Virus record (IMG/VR): IMGVR_UViG_3300005827_000012
Span: 1-30,362 of that record
Reading direction: 5' to 3' (one strand)
Source: a virus
DNA: 30,362 nucleotides
Shown: one piece after another, positions 2,381 through 27,330 of the stretch
How the letters are laid out: each line of letters opens with the position of its first letter
Numbering within the stretch: the first letter of the stretch is position 1
Notes under the pieces: model-generated
Told to the model about the DNA's origin: nothing
Seen by the model: only the letters and a program-made list of their open reading frames with translations
Databases searched by the model: none
Program-made: the position numbers and the translations under genes

Positions 2381-2456
2381 TGGTGGGTCATGCAGGACTC
2401 GAACCTGCGACCAATCCGTTATGAGCGGATGGCTCTAACCACTGAGCTAATGACCC
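2381..2456 (-). tRNA. tRNA with CAT anticodon, probably tRNA-Ile2 (reads AUA)
   Basis: The reverse complement folds into a complete cloverleaf: a 7-bp acceptor GGGTCAT/ATGACCC, D stem GCTC/GAGC, anticodon stem ATCCG/CGGAT with loop CTCATAA, a 5-nt variable loop, T stem GCAGG/CCTGC with TTCGAGT loop, discriminator A and an encoded CCA. CAT anticodons belong to initiator Met, elongator Met or Ile2 (C34 changed to lysidine by TilS). The pattern TTAGCTCAGTGGTTAGAGC with TTGGTCGC resembles E. coli Ile2 tRNAs more than Met tRNAs, so Ile2 is preferred. Phage genes lie on both sides, so this copy appears to be phage-borne. Its anticodon arm is partly copied at 2550-2561, inside the attP-like site. 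Confidence 0.93.
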
Positions 2457-2713: not shown

Positions 2714-3832
2714 ATGGCGATAGACAAAAATGATTATCCGAATGTAATTGAAAGCAATTTATGGGCGGATAAAAATTACACGATTTACTTTTACAATTTC
2801 ATGTTTGAAAAGAAGCGGCATAGAGGGATTATCGATCTCAGCGATAAGAGTGCATGGGGGAAGAAAGATAAGATCGCGTATGCTAAAACAGAGTTGGCAG
2901 CGATTAAGAGCGCGAAGCGGGAGACGATATTAAATACAAACGTCACACTCGATGCTTTCATGGAAGATCATTTCAAGTTGCAGCCGGATACGGATTACAC
3001 CAAATATCGAAAACGGTTTTATGAGCAGTATGTTTCACCGTATTGTGGGAAAAAGAAGGTGGTGGATCTGCGACAGCTGCATATCCTCCATGCCATCAAG
3101 AAGCAAGAGGAGTTAGGGTTAAAGGAACGAACCCGAAAACAAACGCTCGAAGCCCTCAACCCTGCTATGAAAAAGGCGATAGCAAACAGGCTCATAGCGT
3201 TCAACCCGTGTGACGGGGTGAAGATCAAACTACCTCCGGTGAAAAAGATCGTCGTTAATGCGACTGATAAACTGGTGATGATGCACAATGCGATCTATGA
3301 GGAGTTCAAAGACGATCCGTTTTATACGGCATTTTTCCTGTTCGCCCTCCAAGGTCGCCGTAAAGGTGAGATATTGACGCTACGGTGGGAGGATGTCGAT
3401 TTTAAGAACGATCACTATGTATTGCGTAAGACCAAGAACAATGAGGAGCAGAAAATCTATCTCCCCGAAGCGATCAAGGTTCAGTTAGAGCAGTTCAGAG
3501 AATCAGAGGGATGGGTGTTCACCTCGCGGATCACCGGATCACACATCATCAACATCGATAAGGTCGTGGAGCGGATGCGTAAACGGATCGGGGATAATAA
3601 CTTCGGGATTCACTATCTGCGTAACGTGATGGTATCGGCTATGGCTGAGGGTGGGCTAGAGAGTATGCACCTCTCCGGTGCGTTGGGGCATAACGATCCC
3701 AATACGATCAAGAAGTATCTAACGATGAATTATTTAAACAGCTCCCGTCTCGCCAGTACCGTGATCGATACGGCGGTGATAGAGAGCAATAAGAAAAAGG
3801 ATGAGGGAGAGGTTTTAGATTTTTGTATCTGA
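2714..3832 (+). CDS. int: Phage integrase, tyrosine recombinase family
   Basis: A 372-residue protein of normal phage integrase length. Residues 1-70 form an arm-binding-type N-terminal domain (KNYTIYFYNFMFEKKRHRGI), 75-170 the core-binding SAM-like domain, and 180-355 the catalytic domain. The catalytic set is visible: R216 in GRRKGEI, H300-x-x-R303 in IHYLRN, H326 in ALGHNDP and nucleophile Y335 in TIKKYLT. It should catalyse integration and excision at the neighbouring attP-like site. The start is supported by AGGGA six bases before the ATG. The 3' end overlaps the convergent minus-strand operon by 18 bases. Confidence 0.95.
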   Translation: MAIDKNDYPNVIESNLWADKNYTIYFYNFMFEKKRHRGIIDLSDKSAWGKKDKIAYAKTELAAIKSAKRETILNTNVTLDAFMEDHFKLQPDTDYTKYRKRFYEQYVSPYCGKKKVVDLRQLHILHAIKKQEELGLKERTRKQTLEALNPAMKKAIANRLIAFNPCDGVKIKLPPVKKIVVNATDKLVMMHNAIYEEFKDDPFYTAFFLFALQGRRKGEILTLRWEDVDFKNDHYVLRKTKNNEEQKIYLPEAIKVQLEQFRESEGWVFTSRITGSHIINIDKVVERMRKRIGDNNFGIHYLRNVMVSAMAEGGLESMHLSGALGHNDPNTIKKYLTMNYLNSSRLASTVIDTAVIESNKKKDEGEVLDFCI

Positions 3833-6603: not shown

Positions 6604-6806
6604 GATAAAGCCTCCTGTATTACAGAATCAAAAGTGTATTCATTCAAAATCTTAGGAGCCATGCCAAACATACGCTTTCGTTTACAGATTACCATGTCGC
6701 CTTCGATTACAAAGTATTTATCGTAATCGCCAATCTCTTTAAGAAACCTATTATAGGTTGCTACTAGCATCTCTACGACTTCACATTTTGTAAATGTGTC
6801 TTTCAT
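6600..6806 (-). CDS. Small hypothetical protein
   Basis: 68 residues with no recognised domain. The N-terminal half is a likely amphipathic helix (KCEVVEMLVATYNRFLKEIG), followed by a short beta-rich part (YFVIEGDMVICKRKR). The start overlaps the stop of the YopX-like gene (ATGA), and the end overlaps the 21-codon ORF. It is locally AT-rich. Confidence 0.65.
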   Translation of the reverse strand: MKDTFTKCEVVEMLVATYNRFLKEIGDYDKYFVIEGDMVICKRKRMFGMAPKILNEYTFDSVIQEALS

Positions 6807-7183
6807 GGTTGATCCTTTTTAAAAACATTGCCTACGATTTCCACTTCTAACTCATAGCTGAAATTTATGACTTCATTGTCTTCATCTGTAATGATCCGAA
6901 AGGAACAAGTATCCTCATCAAAATAGACTAACCCAATAAAATCTTTCCAATATCCGCAAAGAATTTTTACTTTATAGTTAGTGTAAATATCTACACCGTT
7001 TTTATCTTTTCGACCTATGAAAAAGCAAGGTATAAAAACCAACTCATCCATGTTGCTTGAGTAAACCATGTTTCCATATTCAAAAACTGTTTCATCTTCT
7101 TCGCTTTGTGACAGTTCAATATCAAAGTCATTATCACACCATTCTTCTTTGACTTTATTCCAAAATCTATATTTAATATCCAT
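6803..7183 (-). CDS. YopX-like phage protein
   Basis: 126 residues from the ATG at 7183. YopX-family signs are the N-terminal IKYRFWNKVKEEW (like the usual IKFRAWD) and GRKDKNGVDIYTNYKVKIL (like GLKDKNGKEIYEGDIV). YopX proteins are common in phages of Gram-positive and Gram-negative bacteria and have a small beta-barrel; their function is unknown. A GTG at 7186 could add one residue, but the TGATG overlap with the upstream 23-codon ORF favours ATG at 7183. Confidence 0.75.
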   Translation of the reverse strand: MDIKYRFWNKVKEEWCDNDFDIELSQSEEDETVFEYGNMVYSSNMDELVFIPCFFIGRKDKNGVDIYTNYKVKILCGYWKDFIGLVYFDEDTCSFRIITDEDNEVINFSYELEVEIVGNVFKKDQP

Positions 7184-8179: not shown

Positions 8180-8645
8180 CTGAATGCCCTATCATGTCAT
8201 ACCCATACGGACACGACATCTGATACGGTTTATGTGAAAACGTATCGCACTCATAGACGTTATCATTCCCTACGCCTGTACCAAATTTATGATTTGATTT
8301 ACAGTTATGAAAAGATAAATGACAATCATCACAAAGATGTACTGTTGCTTTTTTATCAATACGATCTAACCGCTCCCACTCAGCCATGAGCATTGCACAC
8401 GCAGTGATGATTTGATCTTGACGGGATTTCTCTTCTTTTTTGAAATACTGAGGTTCCCAAGGGAATAAATAACGAAAATCTCCGCTGCAAACTTTCATAA
8501 GTTCGGCTTTAGTATTTGCCGCATAACACGCCGCCGCATCCGCTATCGATCCGTCCGTATGCTCATCGTCATGTTCAGGTGTATACCCATGCTTGTTGAT
8601 TTGCTTTAGGCGTTCAGCTCTTACCAATTCTAAAAACTTTTCCAT
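8172..8645 (-). CDS. Phage protein with ERxxQIxxxGYTxEHDDxH motif and a Cys-rich tail
   Basis: 157 residues from the ATG at 8645, preceded by GGGAG at a spacing of seven. The first 95 residues match a widespread phage family: AERLKQINKHGYTPEHDDEH, then IADAAACYAAN, FPWEPQYFKK and ACAMLMAEWERLD. Homologues are often left hypothetical or called MazG-like; the conserved Glu, His and Asp residues suggest metal binding, but an NTP-pyrophosphatase role is not proven. The C-terminal 50 residues carry CDDCHLSFHNC and further Cys, which may bind zinc and are not usual for the family. Confidence 0.75.
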   Translation of the reverse strand: MEKFLELVRAERLKQINKHGYTPEHDDEHTDGSIADAAACYAANTKAELMKVCSGDFRYLFPWEPQYFKKEEKSRQDQIITACAMLMAEWERLDRIDKKATVHLCDDCHLSFHNCKSNHKFGTGVGNDNVYECDTFSHKPYQMSCPYGYDMIGHSDE

Positions 8646-8863
8646 CACTTCGCTCCCACTAAATAATATTTTTTCCCGCGTAACTCACGCTCAGATGTCT
8701 CGGTAATCGAATCGACGTATACCGTTCCGCCTGTATAGTATGCCTCATGCACCGCTGACTCTGCTTCGCGTTCTGTCGGTTCTCTATCACATTGCATAAC
8801 TACAAGCTTTCCATCTGATGGATGAAACGTAGTGATAAAATCAATAATCCATAATTTAATCAT
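8645..8863 (-). CDS. Small hypothetical protein
   Basis: 72 residues, not recognised. It looks like a compact alpha/beta fold (IKLWIIDFITTFHPSDGKLV, then EREAESAVHEAYYTGG and KKYYLVGAK). GAGGGGG lies five bases before the ATG at 8863, which overlaps the upstream stop (TGATG); a GTG three bases earlier is possible. The stop overlaps the next gene's start. Confidence 0.65.
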   Translation of the reverse strand: MIKLWIIDFITTFHPSDGKLVVMQCDREPTEREAESAVHEAYYTGGTVYVDSITETSERELRGKKYYLVGAK

Positions 8864-9000
8864 CACTTCCCCCTCTTAAAAAAACTCAACAACTTCGGCG
8901 GGTTCTCGCCGTATTTTCTGAGCTTGCAAATTACATAATCGATTAATCCAATCAGCCCTATGACTACCGCCCCTATTTCAAAAATATCAATCGCATCCAT
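8863..9000 (-). CDS. Single-pass small membrane protein
   Basis: 45 residues from the ATG at 9000, chosen because AGGA lies five bases upstream; a longer frame to 9051 would overlap the previous gene by more than 60 bases. The sequence has one hydrophobic helix (FEIGAVVIGLIGLIDYVI) followed by a basic tail (KLRKYGENPPKLLSFFKRGK), so the C-terminus should face the cytoplasm. Function unknown; small membrane proteins in early phage operons sometimes act in superinfection exclusion or host takeover, which is only a guess here. Confidence 0.6.
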   Translation of the reverse strand: MDAIDIFEIGAVVIGLIGLIDYVICKLRKYGENPPKLLSFFKRGK

Positions 9001-9496
9001 CTCGATCCTTTCTGATCCCATAGAATACAAATTTATACTGTCCGTCCTCACTCAATAGTTCTCCGATACGATCATGAACACTGGAGTGATATTGCCCTTT
9101 TGAATATTCCAACATAGACCATATCCCGTCAACTCTCTCGTATGATAGAACAATGATAGTCTTCGGTTTATACTCATCGAGATTGACACAAAGATTCTTT
9201 ACCCCTCCAATCTTTTTGAGGGATTGTGTCGCGTCTTTTTTCTTTTGTCGGTTGATCCGTTTGTAATACTTGTCAATAGCATCTCGAAGTGCTCTAAAGT
9301 GTTTTTTCGCAAAACGGGATGATTTGGTTAGGATTTTATGTACGGCGATACGGCGTGCGACATCAACCGTTAATCCGATTTCCACATCTACCCCCCCCAC
9401 GAGTGATAGATACCAGTTAAGCTGAGAGTATAAGTAATCCAGTCGCTCACCATTAAACCCAAACTCAGAGAGTTTTTCATACGTTAGCGGTTCCAT
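8987..9496 (-). CDS. Hypothetical protein downstream of parB
   Basis: 169 residues with no recognised family. The first half is helical and basic in the middle (FAKKHFRALRDAIDKYYKRI); the second half is probably beta-rich (TIIVLSYERVDGIWSMLEYS, QYKFVFYGIRKDRD). It follows parB after one base and overlaps the small membrane protein gene by 14 bases. Position next to parAB does not by itself indicate a partition role. Confidence 0.65.
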   Translation of the reverse strand: MEPLTYEKLSEFGFNGERLDYLYSQLNWYLSLVGGVDVEIGLTVDVARRIAVHKILTKSSRFAKKHFRALRDAIDKYYKRINRQKKKDATQSLKKIGGVKNLCVNLDEYKPKTIIVLSYERVDGIWSMLEYSKGQYHSSVHDRIGELLSEDGQYKFVFYGIRKDRDGCD

Positions 9497-9497
9497 G

Positions 9498-10301
9498 TCA
9501 TTGATCCTCCTGTACTATCATAAGTCTGTATTTTGCTTCCGGTTTACAATGTAGCCCTAGCAGTGAGTTTAAATCAGACCCTTTGCACCATACTGTTAGG
9601 GTAATGTCCTGATCTTTTGATTTATCTACTTCTTTTTTCCCTCGGGAAACTTTCGCCTCCGGTTTGAAGCATACGAAATCATCACGCTTGATCTCTCCGG
9701 CGATGTATTTGGTATAGACTTCGCGCTGCGTCTCTTTATCCTTGAACCGTCCGATCTCTTCGAGAACCGATAGCCCTATGTCATGTTTCGCGCTTTCTAA
9801 GTCGGCAATGATCGCTGCATCGAGTTTCAAACAACTAAACGCTTTTGAGATATAAGGCGGTTCTTTTCCTAATGCACTGGCTAAGTCTGATTTTAGTTTG
9901 TATTTCCCGCTCGCCCATAGTGTCCCTATGAATTTGGCTATCTCAAAATCGCTTAGGTCTTCGCGCTGGATGTTCTCAATCAGGGCGAGTTCTTGGATAG
10001 CGTTGTCAGATGAAGCCATTACGTAGGCTTTGATCGTTCGTGCTGCATTATGCAAGTGAGCACGCCATCGTCGCTCTCCGCTGATAATCATGTACCCATC
10101 TTCCCGACGCTCTACGACGATGGGCTGAAGTAATCCATACTCTGCAATCGTTCCCGCAAGCTCTTCGATGTTTTTGAACTCTTTACGCGGTTGGTTAGGG
10201 TTCGGGTATACCGTGGATAGCTCAAGTTCTACATAGGGGCTGATACCGGATGTACGAACTGGGGTCTTTTCTATGGCTTTATTTAGGTCTTTTAAGTTCA
10301 T
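9498..10301 (-). CDS. parB: ParB-type partition (CTPase/DNA-binding) protein
   Basis: 267 residues from the ATG at 10301, preceded by GAGGGG; a longer start at 10325 is possible. The N-terminal ParB/Srx domain shows VYPNPNQPRKEF, LLQPIVVERREDG, the GERRWRA box and ENIQREDLSDFE, which are diagnostic. A helix-turn-helix follows (LASALGKEPPYISKAFSC), then a charged linker and a beta-rich C-terminal dimerisation part. ParB loads at parS sites, spreads as a clamp and works with ParA to segregate replicons. The gene overlaps parA by 23 bases. A perfect TTTCCCTCGGGAAA lies inside this gene at 9636. Confidence 0.95.
   Translation of the reverse strand: MNLKDLNKAIEKTPVRTSGISPYVELELSTVYPNPNQPRKEFKNIEELAGTIAEYGLLQPIVVERREDGYMIISGERRWRAHLHNAARTIKAYVMASSDNAIQELALIENIQREDLSDFEIAKFIGTLWASGKYKLKSDLASALGKEPPYISKAFSCLKLDAAIIADLESAKHDIGLSVLEEIGRFKDKETQREVYTKYIAGEIKRDDFVCFKPEAKVSRGKKEVDKSKDQDITLTVWCKGSDLNSLLGLHCKPEAKYRLMIVQEDQ
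9636..9649. repeat. parS-like 14-bp site 2 (inside parB)
   Basis: TTTCCCTCGGGAAA, identical to the other three copies. On the coding strand it encodes VSRGK, a different reading frame from the copy in the primase gene, so coding constraint does not explain the identity. Confidence 0.65.
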
Positions 10302-10908
10302 CACGTACCCCCTCGATCTCTTCACGTGCGGCTAACATCGCAGTATCAAAAACGCTCTTTCCGTGCCCCATCGTCGCTCTGTAAACTTTGCGTGAACGTA
10401 TTACCGTATCCAGTAAAACGATGTTTGTATCTTGGATGGCTTCACGGATCACGTCGAAATTTCGGGTGTTGGGGTGGATGTTGTTGAGTACGATGTAAAA
10501 ATCTGCACCGGTATTGATCTCTTTTAAAATCTCTCGGAATGTTTTGAACCCTAAGACCTCCGTAACGCTATCGCTTACGGGGATGATAATCTTGTCGCTG
10601 TAGCGTAATGCGGTGCGGTTAATGTCGCTGTCAAATCCACCGACATCGATGATAACGAAGTCATATTGTGAACGTGCGTTTTCGATAATCCCGATAAGAT
10701 CGGATGGGTTCTGAGGTTGGATCACGGTGAGTCGTTCACCGCCCATGAGGTTTAGATAATACAGGGTTTGTTGGAAATCGAGATCGATTACCAAGGTTTT
10801 CTTATTTATCAGGCTATGTGCCAAGTGCCATGCAAGAGTGGATTTACCTACCCCTCCTTTTGTATGCGCGACGGTTAATACCGTGCAATCTTGATTTTTT
10901 TGTGTCAT
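10279..10908 (-). CDS. parA: ParA-type partition ATPase
   Basis: 209 residues, the short (type Ib-like) ParA without an N-terminal HTH. It shows the deviant Walker A box K17-GGVGKST, Walker A' region VIDLDFQQ and Walker B FVIIDVGG near residue 85. With ATP it should bind DNA non-specifically and pull ParB-parS complexes apart. In an integrated prophage such a system would be unnecessary, so parAB argues that the element spends time as a low-copy plasmid. The upstream 77 bases hold two AACATTGT repeats (10931-10938, 10941-10948) that may be an operator. Confidence 0.95.
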   Translation of the reverse strand: MTQKNQDCTVLTVAHTKGGVGKSTLAWHLAHSLINKKTLVIDLDFQQTLYYLNLMGGERLTVIQPQNPSDLIGIIENARSQYDFVIIDVGGFDSDINRTALRYSDKIIIPVSDSVTEVLGFKTFREILKEINTGADFYIVLNNIHPNTRNFDVIREAIQDTNIVLLDTVIRSRKVYRATMGHGKSVFDTAMLAAREEIEGVRDELKRPK

Positions 10909-10985: not shown

Positions 10986-11576
10986 TCACCACGCACGATT
11001 ATTTTTCCCTCGGGAAATTTCCTCATGAGTGACGGTCGTATACCGTGCAGTCGTAGCGATAGAGGTATGCCCGATATCAGTACGGATATGCTCTAGGCTC
11101 AAACCCTGCTGATGTGCTGCCGTGATATACCCTGCGCGGAAACTATGAGAACTGTAAAGCTCTCCGAGTATCGTGTGGATAAAACTGTTCATCAAGAGTT
11201 TGAGTGCGCTCGATGTCATGGGACGATCCGCTCCGTTTTTGGCAAATAGGTATGTGCTGCTCATGGGTAAGAGCTGCTTTAACATGGTGATCTGTACCTG
11301 TTTCTCATCGAAGCTGATAAGGCGGGGTGTTTTGGTTTTCGTGTCATTCGTCAACGAGTATTCGTTATCAGAGATCATCTGCTCTAAATCTTCACGGGTA
11401 AAGTTCACGATCTCCCCCGCTCTGCATCCGGTGAGGTACAGCAGAGTGAACGCCCGTGTGAGTTTTAGCTTCGTCGGACTTTTGATCTCTGTGTTCATCT
11501 TGACCGCTTTGATGAGACGGTCAAACTCTTTTTTCATAATAGGCTTTTTGGCTCGTGTGGTTCCGGTGGGTCTCAT
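10986..11576 (-). CDS. Catalytic-core tyrosine recombinase (XerC/D-like, possible dimer resolvase)
   Basis: 196 residues from the ATG at 11576, chosen because GGAG lies eight bases upstream and the ATG forms an ATGA overlap with the previous gene. The catalytic set is R52 in TGCRAGEI, H144-x-x-R147 in HSFRAGYI, H170 in DIGHTSI and Y179 in TARYTTV. An N-terminal arm-binding domain is missing, which distinguishes it from the integrase at 2714. Its place directly upstream of parAB suggests plasmid dimer resolution. Integron-like or inversion roles cannot be excluded, but no inverted invertible segment is seen nearby. The last codons contain a parS-like site. Confidence 0.88.
   Translation of the reverse strand: MRPTGTTRAKKPIMKKEFDRLIKAVKMNTEIKSPTKLKLTRAFTLLYLTGCRAGEIVNFTREDLEQMISDNEYSLTNDTKTKTPRLISFDEKQVQITMLKQLLPMSSTYLFAKNGADRPMTSSALKLLMNSFIHTILGELYSSHSFRAGYITAAHQQGLSLEHIRTDIGHTSIATTARYTTVTHEEISRGKNNRAW
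11004..11017. repeat. parS-like 14-bp site 3 (upstream of parAB)
   Basis: TTTCCCTCGGGAAA inside the last codons of the recombinase gene (ISRGK), about 95 bases upstream of the parA start. Identical to the other copies. This is where a centromere next to its partition operon would be expected. Confidence 0.7.
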
Positions 11577-12004
11577 GGTGTTGGCTCCTTTGGTTTGTGT
11601 AATCCGCACCCACTGAATTTGATATACGCTACGGTGTCCCCGTCGGGAACGTCTTGGTGCATACAAAATGCATCTTCAAAAAATTGGCATGAGTGGCACG
11701 TTTTAGGTGATAGCGCGGATGCTATCTTCTCTTTATGGTTGAATAGAACGGATAACAATACAGAGAGTGCCTCAGATTCTTCATTACCGCGTTCTCCTAT
11801 GATTCCCTGTACCATTCCGCTGTGTGCATCGGCGATAGTAATATGCTCCATCCCATATTCTGTGCCACTTTCTTTCCCTATGATCTTTCCATACCAAACC
11901 CCGAAAGACATTTCCTTGGCATTAATCAGCGGGGAGCTAATTTCAATTGCCTGTATAATTTTGTCATTGCCAAGGTTGCTTAGGCTTATGATTCTGTTAT
12001 TCAT
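11573..12004 (-). CDS. Hypothetical protein with C-terminal cysteine cluster
   Basis: 143 residues. The N-terminal 100 residues are unrecognised and look alpha/beta. The C-terminus has CHSCQFFEDAFCMHQDVPDG followed by a further FSGCGLHKP, giving a C-x2-C-x7-C-x16 or so-C arrangement that resembles small zinc or iron-sulfur binding tails of phage proteins. It overlaps the recombinase gene and the 12001 gene by four bases each, so it is translated in series with them. Confidence 0.65.
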   Translation of the reverse strand: MNNRIISLSNLGNDKIIQAIEISSPLINAKEMSFGVWYGKIIGKESGTEYGMEHITIADAHSGMVQGIIGERGNEESEALSVLLSVLFNHKEKIASALSPKTCHSCQFFEDAFCMHQDVPDGDTVAYIKFSGCGLHKPKEPTP

Positions 12005-13824: not shown

Positions 13825-14403
13825 CTATTTATCCATAGTCACACTTTTTAAAATATCATTTCTATCCGCGTACATGGAGTTCATTAAGCCTGCTGATAGC
13901 GTTTTAATCTGCAAGCTATTCGACTCTGCTATCACTTGCGATTTATTTGAATACATCCCAAATTCTACCGTGTTGGTAGCGTTTGCTTCGTAGACTTTCA
14001 CTGCTTTTCCATTTTTAAACAATGTCGCCGTCAAATTATGGTGTCCATCCATCGATGATCCGATCATAGAACCGGATACCCCGAGTGTTGCACCGTTTAA
14101 AACTGCACTTCCTATGTTCTTAGCACTGTTCATATCCCATTTTCCGCTCAAATATAGATCGAGAACGGCATCGAGCTTATCATCAGCTCTGTACGGATAC
14201 ACAGTTTCGCTAAAGAAGTTCGATTTTCTTAGCTCTGCAACGATCTTGTTTCCATACGCGGCATCATCTTTGAACGAAACGCCTACGCGGATCGGGATAT
14301 TCTGCCCTGATTTGTATGCTGGAGCCTCAGGTATTTTTTTCCATGTGCAACCGCTGATAAAAAGTGATGATCCGATCATTGCTGCTATGATTATTCGCTT
14401 CAT
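13825..14403 (-). CDS. Outer-membrane-type lipoprotein, probable lysogenic conversion gene
   Basis: 192 residues from the ATG at 14403, with AAGGGG upstream; a longer frame to 14451 puts the signal peptide inside and is rejected. MKRIIIAAMIGSSLFISGC is a classic lipoprotein signal peptide (lipobox ending ISGC). The mature part, with RVGVSFKDDAAYGNKIVAEL and a Gly/Ser-rich region (GSAVLNGATLGVSGSMIGSS) that could insert in or lie on a membrane, is not recognised. A single gene transcribed against its neighbours beside the control region is typical of a moron expressed in the lysogen, for example for surface exclusion; this role is inferred. It ends exactly where the convergent gene ends. Confidence 0.8.
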   Translation of the reverse strand: MKRIIIAAMIGSSLFISGCTWKKIPEAPAYKSGQNIPIRVGVSFKDDAAYGNKIVAELRKSNFFSETVYPYRADDKLDAVLDLYLSGKWDMNSAKNIGSAVLNGATLGVSGSMIGSSMDGHHNLTATLFKNGKAVKVYEANATNTVEFGMYSNKSQVIAESNSLQIKTLSAGLMNSMYADRNDILKSVTMDK

Positions 14404-14478
14404 GTCGTCCCCTTGATTTTGGTATGAGATATTGTAGCTCAAATCATCCATCCTAACTACCTCCAGCTCAAAAACTCT

Positions 14479-14540
14479 TCACCCGTGTAAATGTACGCAC
14501 CGGAGTGAGATCGTGCCTCACAGAGCTTCCTGCGCACGAC
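14479..14540 (+). repeat. 62-bp direct repeat, copy 1
   Basis: Contains GTACGCACCGGAGTGAGATC and then a shared CGTGCCTC and GAGCTTCCT. It matches 14732-14793 at 56 of 62 positions by my alignment. Confidence 0.85.
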
Positions 14541-14633
14541 TTTTTCACCCAAAAAAGCCAAAAACACCCCAAAAAGCGGGTTTTGCCACCGATACGCACT
14601 AAAACACCGATTCGCCGCCATTTGCGATTTTTG

Positions 14634-14663: not shown

Positions 14664-14731
14664 TGCAATCGCGGGGCGGGAGCTGATCTATCATCGCTGT
14701 AAACGCATCGAAGCACACTCATGTAAACGCT

Positions 14732-14793
14732 TTACCCGTGCAAGTGTACGCACCGGAGTGAGATCGTGCCTCCTAGAGCTTCCTACGCACGAC
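14732..14793 (+). repeat. 62-bp direct repeat, copy 2
   Basis: Second copy, 253 bp to the right of the first. Sequence between the copies is unrelated to either. Function unknown; such pairs can arise by duplication or mark replication control loci. Confidence 0.85.
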
Positions 14794-15388
14794 CATTTGA
14801 GCTGAAACCGCCCGAAAACCCCGCGCCAGCGCGGTGCGCCCCTCCCGAACCACAAACCAAAATCGCCGCCATTTGAAAATTTTTTGGGGTATTTTTGGGG
14901 TTTTACGGATTTTTCGGAGGGTTTGAGCTTGATCGAGTGAAGCCAATAGTTAAAAAGGTGAGTTGATATGTTCCACGGTCACTTTTCCCCGAGGAAATGG
15001 AGAGGGAGAGGGGAAATTTTAGAAAAATCGGAAATTCCGATATTTTACGGGAAAAGGGGTGACTTCGTGAATAAACATATTAATTTAGATATTTTAATCC
15101 GTTTAGTTTAAGGATAGAGCCGAAATCCTTAATAATCACATACCGTTTAAGGTTAGGAGCGGTTTTAGTTGGAAAATGGCTTAAGGTTTGATGATGTTGT
15201 CCCGTGGCTGAAATGGAGTGATCGGAGTAAAAGCTACAGAGCGATATGTTTTTTCGATCCGTGTTTATTGGGATTTGAGGGGGGGGTACTTCCCCAACCC
15301 CCTACCGCTCCCAGACCCTATAGGGGAGAATTTCCAAATGACTATTTGATTTTTGGTTAAAAAATTTTCAAACGGCGGCGAATTTTTG

Positions 15389-15514: not shown

Positions 15515-15889
15515 TTAGAGCTGTGATAGCTTCTTGAACTCTTCGAGACGGGAAATGACCTGATCGATGAACTCCTTGGGAGCATAGGGCAGTAACTCTA
15601 CGATCCTGATCGAGCGGTTATCACTGAGCAATCCGCTTATCAAGCCTATCTCGTTGAGAGTCTGATCCGCACTTTGAAGCTCCATACTACCAACGCCTGA
15701 TTCAAGCCAGTCTATAGATACGCTCTCATCAACGGATACCTTTCTAAAAACGTCGAGTGGGATGCTCTTGCGTCTTCTCCAAACGCTCACCGTATTTTTA
15801 TCTTTACCAAGCCTCTCTGCGAGGGCGACATCGGTTTTTACACGAAAGACTTTTTTGAGTCTATCAACCTGATCTGCTACATTTTGCAT
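15515..15889 (-). CDS. CI-like phage repressor (HTH)
   Basis: 124 residues. The N-terminal domain (residues 8-55) is a CI/Cro-type helix-turn-helix: DRLKKVFRVKTDVALAERLG, then KDKNTVSVWRRRKSIPLDVF. The DWLESG segment that follows is usual in Bacteriophage CI repressor HTH proteins. The C-terminus is helical and short; there is no S24 autocleavage domain, so induction must work by another route than RecA-triggered self-cleavage. It faces the replication operon across a 111-bp control region and probably maintains lysogeny. Confidence 0.85.
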   Translation of the reverse strand: MQNVADQVDRLKKVFRVKTDVALAERLGKDKNTVSVWRRRKSIPLDVFRKVSVDESVSIDWLESGVGSMELQSADQTLNEIGLISGLLSDNRSIRIVELLPYAPKEFIDQVISRLEEFKKLSQL

Positions 15890-21566: not shown

Positions 21567-22097
21567 ATGAGAAAAGTATCTTTTAACATTACAAAGCTCG
21601 GTCTTGTGATCGGCAATACTATCAATGTTAAACTCATCGACAGCGTTGGAAAACCTACTATGTCCACTTTTGGATATGTATGCGATCAAAACATCACCCT
21701 TTCCTCAACGACCCAAGAGATAGAGTTGTTGGAAAATGAGTATATGGCTCATCAGACACGCTATAAAATAACCCTACCTAACTCCCTAAATTTTACGTTT
21801 GTTGTTCCAGTATCCAATGATACTACTGCCCCGCATGATCTCCTGTCGCTTTTAAATATCGGCTGCATTTATGGAATTATAGATGTCAGAGAGAGACGCT
21901 TAGCGGATGATTTTGTCGAGAAATTGGAGCTTTATTTCACGGGGGAAAATCCGCATTTCAGCGAATCACAAAAAGCGGTTGTGCAGCTGTATGAATATTT
22001 CGCGGATGATGTGTTCGGAACACCCGCAACCATCGACATCATGCAAATGATGGATGAATACCTAGCAACCCTAACAGGAGACACAACCAATGCCTAA
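21567..22097 (+). CDS. Hypothetical protein upstream of the tail fibre
   Basis: 176 residues, not recognised. The first 90 residues are beta-rich (MRKVSFNITKLGLVIGNTIN, ITLSSTTQEIELLENEYM), as in baseplate or fibre-attached proteins, and the C-terminus is helical (SESQKAVVQLYEYFADDV). It overlaps the tail fibre gene by eight bases, so a structural role in the same tail part is likely. AAAGGG lies upstream of the ATG. Confidence 0.65.
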   Translation: MRKVSFNITKLGLVIGNTINVKLIDSVGKPTMSTFGYVCDQNITLSSTTQEIELLENEYMAHQTRYKITLPNSLNFTFVVPVSNDTTAPHDLLSLLNIGCIYGIIDVRERRLADDFVEKLELYFTGENPHFSESQKAVVQLYEYFADDVFGTPATIDIMQMMDEYLATLTGDTTNA

Positions 22098-25000
22098 GAC
22101 AAGTTTTATCCAAAACGTCAATGCCATAGCCGAAAAGCTTCCTATCATCGTCGAAGCAAACAGCATTTTCGATGAGGGGGTTATCCCCGTTCTCGAAGAT
22201 ATCGCCGCGCTCGATCTATCCGAGGCTATCGTTGATCTTAAAAAAGGGACGTTTTTCGGAAATCGTAAAATCGATATCGATCTCGCCCTGAACAAGCAGG
22301 GGATCACTGAGGGGATGAGCACCGTCGATGCGCTGGCGGTATGGGATACGACGGCTACGACGGTCTATTATAGCTCGGCTACGGTGACGTTTGTGGATGG
22401 TCATATCATCGAAGTACCGTTTGTGAATGATGATGCACAACCGATCAATATCTCCAATCACGGAACGCTCGTATCACAGCTTAATAGCAATACAGCATTT
22501 ACGACCTATCTGACGGAGACGGGGATATTTGACGATATCGGCGGAGCTACTGGGGTATTGGTACGGATGTACGATATCGTCGGGCAAACGTCGAACATCG
22601 AGCGGATACAGCTGCACGCCGTGAGCGGTGCGTATGTCGATCAGAACCCGATCTATTTTTGGGGTAAAACGACGTCGGCGTTTCAGACGCTATCGATGCG
22701 TACCGCCGATATTATCAAGCTCGGAAACGATATCGACAGTATTATCGCACTGGCAAACCGTATCACTGAGATGCTACTGCTTCAAGATAAGATCCCCGAA
22801 CTCGTCACCAATCCTGACAGCCTCTATGCGAATATCTCAAAACTCGTAGCTCTCCATGCTCAGATCGCGGCGATGGTATCGATCTATAACGATATCAAAA
22901 CGGGCGGGACGAACTACATCAACACCGCCGGAGCTGATTTACTCCTCGTAGATTCCAAAATCAAAAAGCTCGCTGATGATCTACAGCTGGGGGCAAATTC
23001 TAAAATATCCATCGTTAAAAGCAATATCGTCAATGTCAACACGGTCGCCAATGCTATCGCCAACGTCAACACGGTCGCTGGGAATATCGCCAACGTCAAC
23101 ACGGTCGCGGCGCAAAATACCAATATCAATACCCTCATCGCCAATCTCACCGCGATTCAAAACGCCTCTGCCAATGCCGCAACCGCAACTGCGCAAGCGG
23201 AGATCGCCACGACGAAAGCGAATGAGATTAAAAACGTCTCGGTAGCTTCTACGACTACGGGTGCTGCCGGAACGGCGGCGAGTGTCGTCTACAACCCGAC
23301 GACCGGAAAGTTTAGTTTTGTCGTACCGCAAGGGGTTAAGGGAGATAAGGGTGACGCATTTAACGTCAACTCGGTCGGACTGTTCGCCGGACGCTCCCTC
23401 TATGATGCTCAGGTAGCGGGGTTTAGTTTTCTCGCGATCGATCAGGCACTCATCTATTTCAAGCTCTCTGCAACGAGCGGGGATTGGTCTATCGGTGCTC
23501 CGTTCGGTAAAGGGGATAAAGGGGATCCGGGAGATACCGGAGTCGGTATCGTCGATATCGTCTTTGAATCCACGACTCATGCGAGCGGATTAGCGGCACA
23601 AAGCGGCGGGGTGGATACTTACACGATCACGTTTACCGATGCGAGTACGTCGGTGTTTTTGGTTCGTAATGGGTTGGATAGCGATGTATTCATGAGCGAT
23701 TTGACGGCACTTGCTGATGCTGTTAATACCGCACTTGGGGATAAGGCGGATAAATCGACGACGTACACGAAAACGGAAGTCAATGATTTATTATTAACTT
23801 CATCGAATCAAATACTAAAACCCTCCATAACCTCCCCCGCCACCGGAGCAATCGATTTCATCGGAGCAGTGACAAGCAGTGCCTATACGACAGGTACTAA
23901 CTACCAAGGAATACACGACTACACCCACTGGCAGTGCGCTACCGATACAGCGTTCACTGCTATCATCGACGAAGAGACGGTCGGGAATCTAACCTCGTGG
24001 ACACCGTCGGTTGGGTTGGCTCTCACTACGGTGTATGTGCGGGTTCGTTACGGTTCGGATAATCATCTCTCTGAATGGTCGGATACGATCAGTTTTACGA
24101 CACCGAATATCTACATCAATACCCCGACACTCACCGTCACAGGAACCCCTACGGATGTGCCTGAGACACCGACGCTTACAACGTCTGCGTTTAGCGTTGC
24201 GAATGGAGCAGATACCCACGCATCTACTGACTGGCAAGTGATTCGTGTATCGGATAGTACGATTATATGGCAGTCGCTTTCAGATGCTACGAACAAACTC
24301 ACGATCACCGTCCCTGCTGGGGTGTTGGCAGTATCAACTGCCTATACGTTCAAAGCACGTCACAATGGGGCTACGTATGGAAGCAGTGCGTATGTATCGG
24401 TGAGCGGTACGACAAAATCCGCGTTTATCATCCCTATCGGTACGGCTGGGGCTATGGATTTCGGTGTGGCTCCCTCATCTGAGGCGTGGGCGGTTATGGG
24501 GCTGTCTGAAATGACGGGGACAACTACCGCTGGGCATGACAACTATGGGAATTATCAGCATACCAACGGATCGATCATGGTTCATGTGCCGAAGTTTTAC
24601 TATCGTATCGGTAATGCCGCCGCACCTCAGTATGCGACGTACGGTGCGAACAGTATCGAGATTAAAGGAACCGAGAGCTACACCACCGAAGCTGCCGCCA
24701 ATGCAGCAGGGTTTGTTCTCCATCGTGCGTTTATCGACGGCGGAGTTGAAAAAGGCGGGTTCTTTATCGACAAGTATATGGCTTCGAAAAAAGTCGGAGA
24801 TACGAATGTCGCCGTCTCGGTTAAGAATGGAAACCCTATCGGGCTTACGACCAACACTACCTATACACCATCGTCAACCATGACAGGATGTACCGGAATA
24901 CTCGCGGATGCCATCACACTATCTCGCGCAAGAGGTAGCTATTTTAACGCGGCATCGGCGTTTATGTACGGAGCCATCGCCCTGCTCTCTATCGCTCACG

Positions 25001-25731
25001 CTCAGCGTGCTACGGGAACTGCTGCGTGTGCATGGTACGACGCGTCGCTCACGACGAACTTTCCAAAAGGGTGCAATAACGGAAGCCTATCTGATGTAAA
25101 CGATACCTCGGTTACATGGAGCGCCTCACCGGACACTGCCGCTAAAGGCTTAACCGGTTCTGCATCAAATTTTGCTAAATCGACGCATAACGGGCAGAAC
25201 AACGGTATCGCCGATGTGAATGGACTAATGTATGAGGTAGGGATCGGGATAACCAACTTCGGAACCAGCGCAACATCGACGACGCAGATTACTACCAATA
25301 CGATCTATGTGCTCAAACAATCCGTCGCCCTCAAAAATCTCACAGCAGGATGGGACGGTGCTACCGACGCATGGGGGAATACAACGAACCTATCTACCCG
25401 ATACGACGCGGTGACCTCCCCGATCACAGTATCGGCAAGCACCACAGAGTACTGGGGAAGCGGAAGCAATCAGGTATTCGATCCGGCATCGAGCGGTGTA
25501 GGTCGTGATCTATGCGGCGTCCTCCCAAAAAATGATGCGTCCGACGATGCGACGGGGACAAATATGTGCGGTAATGACTATATACGTCATTACAATGTTC
25601 AGAATATGCAGCCGCTGTTCTGTGGGTATTGGAGCACTGCCGCCTTTGCTGGGGTGCTGTACCGTAATTTGGTCAACTATCGTTGTAATGATAACCTTTA
25701 TGCTGGCTTTCGGGCTGCCGCCTATGTGTAG
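22090..25731 (+). CDS. Tail fibre with DGR-diversified C-type-lectin-like tip
   Basis: 1213 residues. Residues 1-310 are likely the virion-anchoring and helical shaft part; 315-345 hold three decapeptide repeats of the NVNTVAxxIA kind, a motif common in phage fibres. Short collagen-like triplets occur at 415-422 (GVKGDKGD) and 473-486 (GKGDKGDPGDTGVG). Around 590-800 are beta-sandwich, fibronectin-like modules (TPTLTVTGTPTDVPETPTLT). From about 800 the protein resembles DGR target proteins with a C-type-lectin fold: IDGGVEKGGFFIDKYM, ARGSYFNAAS, CGNDYIRHYNVQN, and the terminal GFRAAAYV. Residues 1176-1213 are encoded by VR; sites 1180, 1183, 1186, 1195, 1203, 1204 and 1211 differ from TR. It should bind the host receptor. 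Confidence 0.92.
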   Translation: MPKTSFIQNVNAIAEKLPIIVEANSIFDEGVIPVLEDIAALDLSEAIVDLKKGTFFGNRKIDIDLALNKQGITEGMSTVDALAVWDTTATTVYYSSATVTFVDGHIIEVPFVNDDAQPINISNHGTLVSQLNSNTAFTTYLTETGIFDDIGGATGVLVRMYDIVGQTSNIERIQLHAVSGAYVDQNPIYFWGKTTSAFQTLSMRTADIIKLGNDIDSIIALANRITEMLLLQDKIPELVTNPDSLYANISKLVALHAQIAAMVSIYNDIKTGGTNYINTAGADLLLVDSKIKKLADDLQLGANSKISIVKSNIVNVNTVANAIANVNTVAGNIANVNTVAAQNTNINTLIANLTAIQNASANAATATAQAEIATTKANEIKNVSVASTTTGAAGTAASVVYNPTTGKFSFVVPQGVKGDKGDAFNVNSVGLFAGRSLYDAQVAGFSFLAIDQALIYFKLSATSGDWSIGAPFGKGDKGDPGDTGVGIVDIVFESTTHASGLAAQSGGVDTYTITFTDASTSVFLVRNGLDSDVFMSDLTALADAVNTALGDKADKSTTYTKTEVNDLLLTSSNQILKPSITSPATGAIDFIGAVTSSAYTTGTNYQGIHDYTHWQCATDTAFTAIIDEETVGNLTSWTPSVGLALTTVYVRVRYGSDNHLSEWSDTISFTTPNIYINTPTLTVTGTPTDVPETPTLTTSAFSVANGADTHASTDWQVIRVSDSTIIWQSLSDATNKLTITVPAGVLAVSTAYTFKARHNGATYGSSAYVSVSGTTKSAFIIPIGTAGAMDFGVAPSSEAWAVMGLSEMTGTTTAGHDNYGNYQHTNGSIMVHVPKFYYRIGNAAAPQYATYGANSIEIKGTESYTTEAAANAAGFVLHRAFIDGGVEKGGFFIDKYMASKKVGDTNVAVSVKNGNPIGLTTNTTYTPSSTMTGCTGILADAITLSRARGSYFNAASAFMYGAIALLSIAHAQRATGTAACAWYDASLTTNFPKGCNNGSLSDVNDTSVTWSASPDTAAKGLTGSASNFAKSTHNGQNNGIADVNGLMYEVGIGITNFGTSATSTTQITTNTIYVLKQSVALKNLTAGWDGATDAWGNTTNLSTRYDAVTSPITVSASTTEYWGSGSNQVFDPASSGVGRDLCGVLPKNDASDDATGTNMCGNDYIRHYNVQNMQPLFCGYWSTAAFAGVLYRNLVNYRCNDNLYAGFRAAAYV
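23035..23108 (+). repeat. 30-bp period repeat in the fibre gene
   Basis: GTCAACACGGTCGC recurs at 23035, 23065 and 23095. It encodes three copies of a decapeptide beginning NVNTVA. Tandem DNA repeats of this type let a fibre shaft change length by recombination. Confidence 0.8.
25616..25727 (+). repeat. DGR variable repeat (VR)
   Basis: 112 bp at the very 3' end of the fibre gene, aligned without gaps to TR at 26177-26288 (offset 561). There are 12 mismatches; ten are at TR adenines (of 25 in TR), replaced by T, C or G. The other two are C to G at 25685 and G to A at 25724, the latter in the last bases where IMH and IMH* normally differ. The last 20 bp before that (25701-25720, GC-rich, starting TGCTGGC) are identical and should act as the initiation-of-homing region. 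Confidence 0.95.
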
Positions 25732-25742
25732 TATCTTCGTGA

Positions 25743-25762
25743 CGCTGTGCGATAGCACAGTG
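25743..25762 (+). promoter_or_regulatory. DGR target-recognition hairpin
   Basis: CTGTGC-GATA-GCACAG at 25745-25760 is a perfect 6-bp stem with a GATA tetraloop; a G-T and a C-G pair extend it to eight. It lies 12 bp after the fibre stop. In the BPP-1 DGR a hairpin or cruciform just past VR, with a GRNA loop, is needed for efficient homing; GATA fits GRNA. Confidence 0.8.
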
Positions 25763-25775
25763 GGAGAGGAGGTGA

Positions 25776-26174
25776 GTGTTGGCTAATCCGGAGGCGAGTT
25801 TGGGGATGAAGATGATCGAGCTATCAAAACTGGCGAACATCCATCTGAACCATTTCCCCAAACATGAGAAGTATGGTCTGTGTCAGACGATCCGTGCTGC
25901 AATGTATGATTTGTTCGAGCTGATCGTGGAGTGTCAAAAGCGCTACCACAAAAAAACAACTCTCACGCAACTGGATATACGGCATGAACAACTGCGTATG
26001 CTTTTCCGACTAGCACACGAGATGGGGTATTTTTCGTATCACAACGGAAAATCATCTCGAAGCGAAGCGGAGAGCGCACGAAGATACATGGCGGTGTCTA
26101 TCCTCATCAACGAGGTAGGCGCTATGATCGGCGGATGGATTAAACATGATCTACAACCTAGGGAGAGTCATTAA
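25776..26174 (+). CDS. avd: DGR accessory variability determinant (Avd-like)
   Basis: 132 residues. A four-helix bundle is expected: MKMIELSKLANIHLNHFPKH, EKYGLCQTIRAAMYDLFELI, QLDIRHEQLRMLFRLAHEMG and ESARRYMAVSILINEVGAMI. The pattern around FPKHEKYGLCQTIR is the hallmark of Avd/S23-type proteins. Avd forms a pentamer that binds the reverse transcriptase and TR RNA and is needed for cDNA synthesis. Start codon is uncertain: AGGAGG is three bases from GTG 25776 and six from TTG 25779. The stop lies two bases before TR. Confidence 0.9.
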   Translation: MLANPEASLGMKMIELSKLANIHLNHFPKHEKYGLCQTIRAAMYDLFELIVECQKRYHKKTTLTQLDIRHEQLRMLFRLAHEMGYFSYHNGKSSRSEAESARRYMAVSILINEVGAMIGGWIKHDLQPRESH

Positions 26175-26176
26175 AA

Positions 26177-26288
26177 TGTTCTGTGGGAATTGGAGCAATG
26201 CCGCCAATGCTGGGGTGCTGTACCGTAATTTGAACAACTATCGTTCTAATGATAACAATAATGCTGGCTTTCGGGCTGCCGACTGTGT
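26177..26288 (+). repeat. DGR template repeat (TR)
   Basis: 112 bp rich in AAY codons (ten AAT/AAC in the frame of VR), which is the usual design: mutagenesis of AAY at the two A positions gives many amino acids but never stop codons. It lies between avd and the reverse transcriptase gene, the BPP-1 arrangement. The TR transcript should span the avd end to the start of the reverse transcriptase gene. TR is open in frame with the reverse transcriptase and has an ATG at 26176. Confidence 0.95.
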
Positions 26289-26331
26289 TTCCACTCCTGA
26301 CATTTCAATGGAAAATACTGGAGACATAGGG

Positions 26332-27330
26332 ATGACTTTTCCTGCGAAAGCGAAATCTGCAGGATATGCGACTGAAATCTATTCGTATACCCCAACACTG
26401 AGTGATGTAGCGCGCATCGATAATCTCTATCAAGGGTTTTTGAACGCTCGAAGAAGCAAACGTAACAAGCGTGCCATTTATGCGTTCGAGAACAATCTCG
26501 GAGAGAATCTAAAAACGATCTCTGAGGCACTGATGAGTAATGCCTACGTTCCGGATACTCCTAGAGCGTTCGTTATCAATGAGAGAAAGCGTCGAGAGAT
26601 AGCCGCACCGTCGTTTCGTGATTCAGTGGTACAACACACGATCTATCTGCTCGTGTATGAGCTGTTTGATCGTGGGTTTATCCATGACAGCTATGGATGC
26701 AGAAAAGGCAAAGGGGCGCACAGTGCGTCCGATAGACTCCAATCGTTTATGCGTCAATGCGATAGCGATGCATATTATCTTCAGATGGATATTCGCAAAT
26801 ACTATTACTCAATACCGCATGATCGTCTGCGTGAACGGCTAGAGCGAAAACTCTCCGATTGTGCGCTAATCGATTTGATGATGGCGTTCTCAGGCAGCGG
26901 TGATCGAGGGCTTTATATCGGGAATCTGTTATCACAGATGTATGGGTTGATCTATCTCGACCGACTCGATCACTGGATGAAGCGGGTAAAAAAACAAAAA
27001 CGATATGTTCGATACGTGGATGATTTTATATCCGTAGGGATGAGCAGAGAAGAGGCGTATACGCTGTTGGGTGAATGTGAGAGATTTTTGGAAAAAGAGA
27101 TGGGGCTATCTCTATCAAAATGGAGAGTTGCGAAGATATCCAAGGGGTGCAATTACGTCGGGTTTAGAACATGGCAGAAAACGAAGCTGGTGCGAAAGTT
27201 CAGTCTCCATAATTTTTCCAAAGCACTCAAACGTAACAAAAACGAGAGTCTCGTTTCTATCGTAGGTAATGCTAAAAATACGGCAACGTACAAACATTTC
27301 CAAACCAAATTAAAGGAGAGAGCAGCATGA
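26332..27330 (+). CDS. DGR reverse transcriptase
   Basis: 332 residues from the ATG at 26332, which has GGAG eight bases upstream and gives the usual DGR enzyme length. Motifs in order: SYGCRKGKGAH (120-130), catalytic D153 in LQMDIRKYYYSI, the DGR-typical IGNLLSQ (197-203) in place of the QG motif of group II intron enzymes, catalytic YVDD (228-231) and NYVGFR (274-279). It should copy TR RNA to cDNA with adenine-directed errors. The frame is open upstream through TR to 26146, so a TR-encoded N-terminal extension is possible but unlikely as the main product. The stop overlaps the next gene by four bases. Confidence 0.96.
   Translation: MTFPAKAKSAGYATEIYSYTPTLSDVARIDNLYQGFLNARRSKRNKRAIYAFENNLGENLKTISEALMSNAYVPDTPRAFVINERKRREIAAPSFRDSVVQHTIYLLVYELFDRGFIHDSYGCRKGKGAHSASDRLQSFMRQCDSDAYYLQMDIRKYYYSIPHDRLRERLERKLSDCALIDLMMAFSGSGDRGLYIGNLLSQMYGLIYLDRLDHWMKRVKKQKRYVRYVDDFISVGMSREEAYTLLGECERFLEKEMGLSLSKWRVAKISKGCNYVGFRTWQKTKLVRKFSLHNFSKALKRNKNESLVSIVGNAKNTATYKHFQTKLKERAA

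Follow-up and report, generated by a model that had tools for sequence, protein, structure and literature searches.

The 30,362-bp linear virus record IMGVR_UViG_3300005827_000012 (the window, by which we mean this whole stretch of DNA) contains a pair of near-identical repeats beside a reverse transcriptase (RT) gene, which raises the question of whether it holds a complete diversity-generating retroelement (DGR), what such an element would act on, and whether it still works. The original prediction had placed a complete DGR at 25616–27330 and taken its target to be a phage tail fibre. We are as good as certain that the element is a DGR, and the window almost certainly holds it complete, in a tailed phage of temperate or phage-plasmid-like character whose host is probably one of the Campylobacterota. 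The target, avd and RT frames are all open and intact. The predicted span was too short, as the element extends past it to the start of the target gene at 22090. The cassette is a clean new example of a known system, not a new kind of system. Its parts and their order, the adenine bias, the marks at the repeat ends and a hairpin are read from the sequence, and its mechanism is inferred from established DGRs.

The variable repeat (VR, 25616–25727, plus strand) provides the final codons of the target gene and is a 112-nt repeat of the template repeat (TR, 26177–26288, plus strand). A repeat finder recovered the pair independently, and the figures in the original prediction proved exact: 12 of the 112 positions are mismatched, with a TR adenine at 10 of them and a VR adenine at one (hypergeometric P=2.9e-6). 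All ten adenine changes occur at codon position 1 or 2, nine of them within AAY codons. The 3′ end of the VR (25700–25727, plus strand) resembles an initiation of mutagenic homing (IMH) segment and bears the tetranucleotide GCCT at 25720–25723, where the TR has the IMH* mark GACT (26281–26284). This difference is fixed across the RT branch to which the window belongs; in the full set of 50 scored branch relatives with GACT in the TR, the VR reads GCCT in 49 and GCTT in one. The change A26282>C and its neighbor G26285>A both lie within this 3′ segment, and in view of the branch relatives the preferred reading is that they are fixed IMH/IMH* marks and no product of diversification. The claim that the displayed VR is already a diversified product therefore stands, with nine diversified adenines instead of ten because A26282>C is a fixed mark. 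Within the 105-nt core, 9 of the 24 TR adenines are diversified and 9 of the 10 changes occur at adenines (P=3.7e-6). A second VR was sought in the window and none was found, and a pattern scan with the window's own TR/VR matched no other contig.

One part that had been overlooked is a hairpin, CGCTGTGC-GATA-GCACAGTG (25743–25762, plus strand), located 3′ of the target stop codon (25729–25731) and 15 nt past the VR. It consists of a GATA loop on an 8-pair stem that includes one G.T pair. When folded as DNA it has a stability of -7.6 kcal/mol (z -4.1), and none of 200 shuffled sequences was equally stable. Efficient retrohoming in BPP-1 needs a hairpin, and the rule published by Guo (2011) calls for a GRNA loop 4–34 bp past the VR (PMC3240598); the window hairpin satisfies this rule in both loop and position. 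A hairpin of this type was also looked for after the TR and is absent there.

The protein components are equally well defined. The gene for the accessory variability determinant (avd, 25776–26174, plus strand, 132 aa), predicted as Avd-like, matches Pfam bAvd (E=6e-19), the PHROG family "Avd protein of DGR" (1e-27) and NCBIfam DivGenRetAVD (2e-24, above the cut-off). Avd is common in DGRs, though not universal. The RT (26332–27330, plus strand, 332 aa, starting at ATG 26332) contains both motifs that had been noticed, IGNLLSQ, which is the SQ-type motif 4, and YVDD, and it matches the PHROG reverse transcriptase family at 1.5e-94. Its best match in the PDB is 8ub7 (6e-37), a BPP-1-type DGR RT complex, whereas group II intron RTs match at ~1e-15 or weaker. 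A maximum-likelihood tree splits the DGR RTs from three group II RTs with support of 100/100 and places the window RT alongside those of BPP-1 and other TR/VR-bearing loci, inside the DGR group as had been expected. Within that group the window RT pairs with the RT of locus L019 (100/98) on a branch separate from BPP-1. The tree includes one plasmid RT (Segatella), whose very long branch makes its placement uncertain.

The target gene (22090–25731, plus strand) encodes a 1213-aa tail fibre with the VR at its 3′ end. Residues 1–780 form the shaft and attachment region, with collagen-like GDKGD stretches, and the N-terminus matches the PHROG tail fiber family (4e-10). It is also 36–39% identical to fibres that occupy the same genomic slot in L010, L011 and L012. 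Residues 781–1213 (24430–25728, plus strand) form the variable tip domain, 62% identical to that of L019 and 57% to that of L042, and the protein ends in AGFRAAAYV, in keeping with the GFRAA-type lectin-like C-terminus described initially. We modeled these last 433 residues from 38 aligned sequences (pLDDT 86, pTM 0.91). The best PDB match to the model is TaqVP (5vf4), with E=1.5e-12 over 455 alignment columns at 16% identity and a TM-score of ~0.5–0.57, while Mtd variants match far more weakly (E about 0.03–0.4). Against viral models, a protein of Campylobacter phage CP220 ranks first, and many tail collar fibres come after it. A Pfam scan found no mtd domain in the window target. The N-terminal match and the modeled fold together support the assignment of the target as a tail fibre whose tip, at the VR end, is C-type-lectin-like.

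The search for relatives of the RT and the target that the original prediction proposed was done as an alignment scan and returned 80 loci (designated here by L and a number). The nearest RT (54%) and the nearest tip (62%) are both those of L019. A DNA-level search retrieved no similar phage record, and genome contigs scanned with the RT and the terminase as queries contained no relative. Including the window and BPP-1, 86 RT-bearing loci were examined, and a TR/VR pair was found in 82 of them. The pooled TR–VR mismatch rate, with ends trimmed, is 55% at TR adenines versus 0.7% at other bases, a contrast that is favored by the search criterion and the end trimming. L051, L052 and L053 are identical in 900 nt of RT, in 120 nt of TR, in avd and in 400 nt upstream; yet the three pairwise comparisons of their VRs give 10, 14 and 18 differing sites, every one of them at a TR adenine. 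The VRs of L036 and L037 likewise have 11 differences, 11/11 at TR adenines. This comparison of sequences shows that relatives on the same branch, at about 43–47% RT identity, diversify in nature, which does not in itself prove activity of the window copy. L025 contains, besides its VR, a further VR-like copy of its TR (6712–6833, minus strand), inverted, distant from the RT and with 18 adenine differences.

By analogy with established DGRs, a complex of RT and Avd would copy a transcript that holds the TR and a conserved spacer, misreading template adenines. With the IMH segment and the hairpin past the stop codon as guides, the mutated cDNA would then replace the VR at the 3′ terminus of the fibre gene, and the TR would remain unaltered through the cycle. 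The C-type-lectin-like tip would vary at residues that come from TR AAY codons, so the receptor that may be bound would vary among progeny phages, and the receptor range of the phage may be altered as a result.

We consider it quite probable, perhaps strongly so, that the window's own copy is presently active. Several observations weigh against this. The window phage is a single contig, and no close relative that bears another VR was found. The RT reads GLYIGNLLSQ where most relatives have GIPIGNLLSQ, and the 105-nt core has one non-adenine change, C26246>G. The single contig and the GLYIGN motif would also fit a DGR that once worked and is now inactive, in which the VR is a frozen product and the TR, avd and RT are heading to decay. 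We regard this as unlikely, as all frames are open, the TR retains its AAY codons, and YVDD, the SQ motif, the IMH marks and the hairpin are all intact, while relatives on the same branch are demonstrably active.

A feature bearing on the template RNA also raises a question about the start of the RT. Sequence following the TR is conserved in 40 aligned relatives (TGGA...AGGGAT...TCC.GC...GCGAAATC), a pattern as expected for a template RNA that would be functional. In the window, the conserved spacer of the presumed template RNA (CTGGAGACATAGGGAT...TCCTGC...GCGAAATC; 26318–26364, plus strand) includes the pairing arms TCCTGC/GCAGGA, a Shine–Dalgarno-like GGAG and the RT start codon. An Rfam scan of the window matched a tRNA alone, so the spacer is not a catalogued RNA family. 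The RT start is downstream of the spacer in most relatives and within it in the window and L019; in both of these, an open frame passes through the TR into the RT (26128–27330 in the window). This frame could be taken as real, giving a fusion protein in which the RT has a TR-encoded N-terminal domain. We considered and rejected that reading, which is very unlikely because just 18 of 82 loci have a TR without stops in the RT frame, at or below chance for one stop-free frame in three. The frame is moreover not open in L008 and L014, and the GGAG lies 8 nt upstream of ATG 26332. Finally, an ordinary duplication with adenine mutations by chance, beside an RT of the retron or group II type unconnected with the repeats, is scarcely credible: the group II model TIGR04416 does detect the RT (E=7e-34), yet with 117 bits against a 300-bit cut-off, and the adenine bias, the presence of Avd, the fully supported separation from group II RTs and the same arrangement at about 80 loci all stand against it.

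With the DGR so defined, it can be compared with known systems. The window had been described as having the BPP-1 layout, and the gene order indeed agrees; as in the mtd-avd-TR-brt cassette of this Bordetella phage, the order is target, avd, TR, RT. The two also have in common the adenine-specific TR/VR differences, Avd, SQ and YxDD motifs in RTs that are 29% identical, a phage tail target and a GRNA-loop hairpin past the target stop codon. The resemblance does not extend to the RT branch or the type of target. The window RT lies elsewhere in the DGR tree, the tip is TaqVP-like, and the target, unlike that of L016, has no Pfam mtd match. The window also has a GCCT/GACT mark and no GC-only block, and its RT starts inside the conserved spacer. 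The match of the modeled tip to TaqVP of Thermus aquaticus, given the identity and TM-score above, indicates kinship of fold, not membership of the same protein family. L019 (IMGVR_UViG_3300031631_000037) resembles the window in layout, in the spacer that encloses the RT start and in an 8-bp GATA hairpin, but it is a 20-kb record without a related terminase, and its fibre N-terminus is unlike that of the window. The nearest annotated records are Pseudomonas phage Bise and a Helicobacter ganmani prophage (BK070120), with RTs 42% and 38% identical. Both have the target-avd-TR-RT order and hairpins, with GGTA and GATA loops; their fibre N-termini differ, and neither record labels the element as a DGR.

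The phages related to the window through their terminase (60–74%) have a common order of DnaB, terminase, small gene and fibre. Two of them, L008 and L014, have DGRs whose tip is of the window's kind. The DGR of L016 belongs to the BPP-1 branch; its targets are of the Mtd type (Pfam mtd_2nd), and it has two VRs, one of them in a second gene 4.6 kb upstream. No DGR was found in L010, L011 and L012, the phages with a homologous fibre N-terminus, and the RT is absent from the whole records of L011 (28 kb) and L012 (27 kb). A shared terminase and fibre slot can thus be accompanied by the window type, the Mtd type or none, so the cassette behaves as an exchangeable module, and in the RT tree the DGRs of this phage lineage require at least two origins. 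These observations support the notion that the tip domain and avd-TR-RT move as one module. Modular recombination of DGRs was proposed by Roux et al. 2021 (PMC8144416), and the window lineage is a clear example of it, not a new principle. In L016, the second VR (9257–9377) lies in a separate 287-aa Mtd-type gene (8567–9430) between DnaB and the terminase, and one TR serves both this VR and the fibre VR (13897–14017). The closest relatives are L006, L007 and L013, with terminases 92–94% identical to that of the window; these contigs stop in or just past the terminase, and the fibre region is missing.

As for the host, the terminase and primase of the window are nearest to Helicobacter prophages, and the primase carries a DnaGprimase_HBD domain, a domain described from H. 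pylori DnaG. On these gene affinities the host is likely a member of the Campylobacterota, which include sulfur oxidisers among many other members; the sulfur-oxidising type host put forward in the original prediction would be one possibility within this group. The window encodes ParA and ParB, two tyrosine integrases and a CI-type repressor (9498–10908, 10986–11666, 2714–3832 and 15515–15889), as well as Dam, suggesting a phage that may be temperate or phage-plasmid-like. A complete tRNA-Met (CAT) gene (2381–2456, minus strand) lies between phage genes and an integrase and may either mark an attachment site or be a tRNA that the phage carries; examined as a clue to the host, it was uninformative. 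Elsewhere in the window, positions 1–1707 hold a partial gene for a large polyvalent protein (LPD38 domain), and the only other direct repeat of at least 45 nt is a 98-nt pair (14472–14569 and 14725–14822), 81% identical and unrelated to the TR/VR, in a region without a convincing gene.

The window hairpin is of the ordinary Watson–Crick class, and its relatives reveal a second form at the recognition site. Among 76 non-redundant DGRs, 30 have a hairpin with at least four Watson–Crick pairs, and 33 have two or three Watson–Crick pairs followed by tandem A.G/G.A and a GRNA-loop cap; a mini-hairpin of two Watson–Crick pairs plus tandem G.A occurs at this site in about 40% of relatives. The motif GA-NN-GRNA-N'N'-GA is strongly enriched directly past the VR: 6.6 kb of sequence downstream of VRs contain 38 copies and the remaining 860 kb examined only 10, counts that include duplicate loci. 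Stem pairs 3–4 are A.G/G.A in 35 of 68 cases and otherwise nearly always Watson–Crick, and pairs 1 and 2 show compensating changes (C.G or T.A at the first; G.C, A.T or C.G at the second). The class is seen in two RT branches, BPP-1 relatives included, with examples downstream of the VRs of L014, L016, L021, L028, L047, L051 and about 27 others; it occurred in none of 15 named phage records checked. A nearest-neighbor program predicts that the short forms are barely stable. In DNA, loops of the GNA type and tandem sheared G.A pairs have unusual stability. A literature search that covered few subscription journals found no paper on tandem G.A pairs in DGR hairpins. We tentatively propose, at slightly less than even confidence, that site recognition in this DGR branch occurs chiefly via the GRNA loop (mostly GATA/GGTA) on its closing pairs, and that the stem may shrink to two Watson–Crick pairs plus tandem A.G/G.A. 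Such mini-hairpins would form a class outside the published 7–10 bp rule.

Taken as a whole, the window contributes a well-preserved DGR of an uncultured phage lineage, probably one that infects Campylobacterota. The differing VRs of otherwise near-identical relatives show that the RT branch is diversifying in the environment. The lineage also offers a natural comparison, in which phages that agree in terminase, adjacent gene and fibre slot have the window's cassette type, a two-target Mtd-type DGR or none. If functional, the short G.A-clamped hairpins would alter the rule for predicting DGR target sites.

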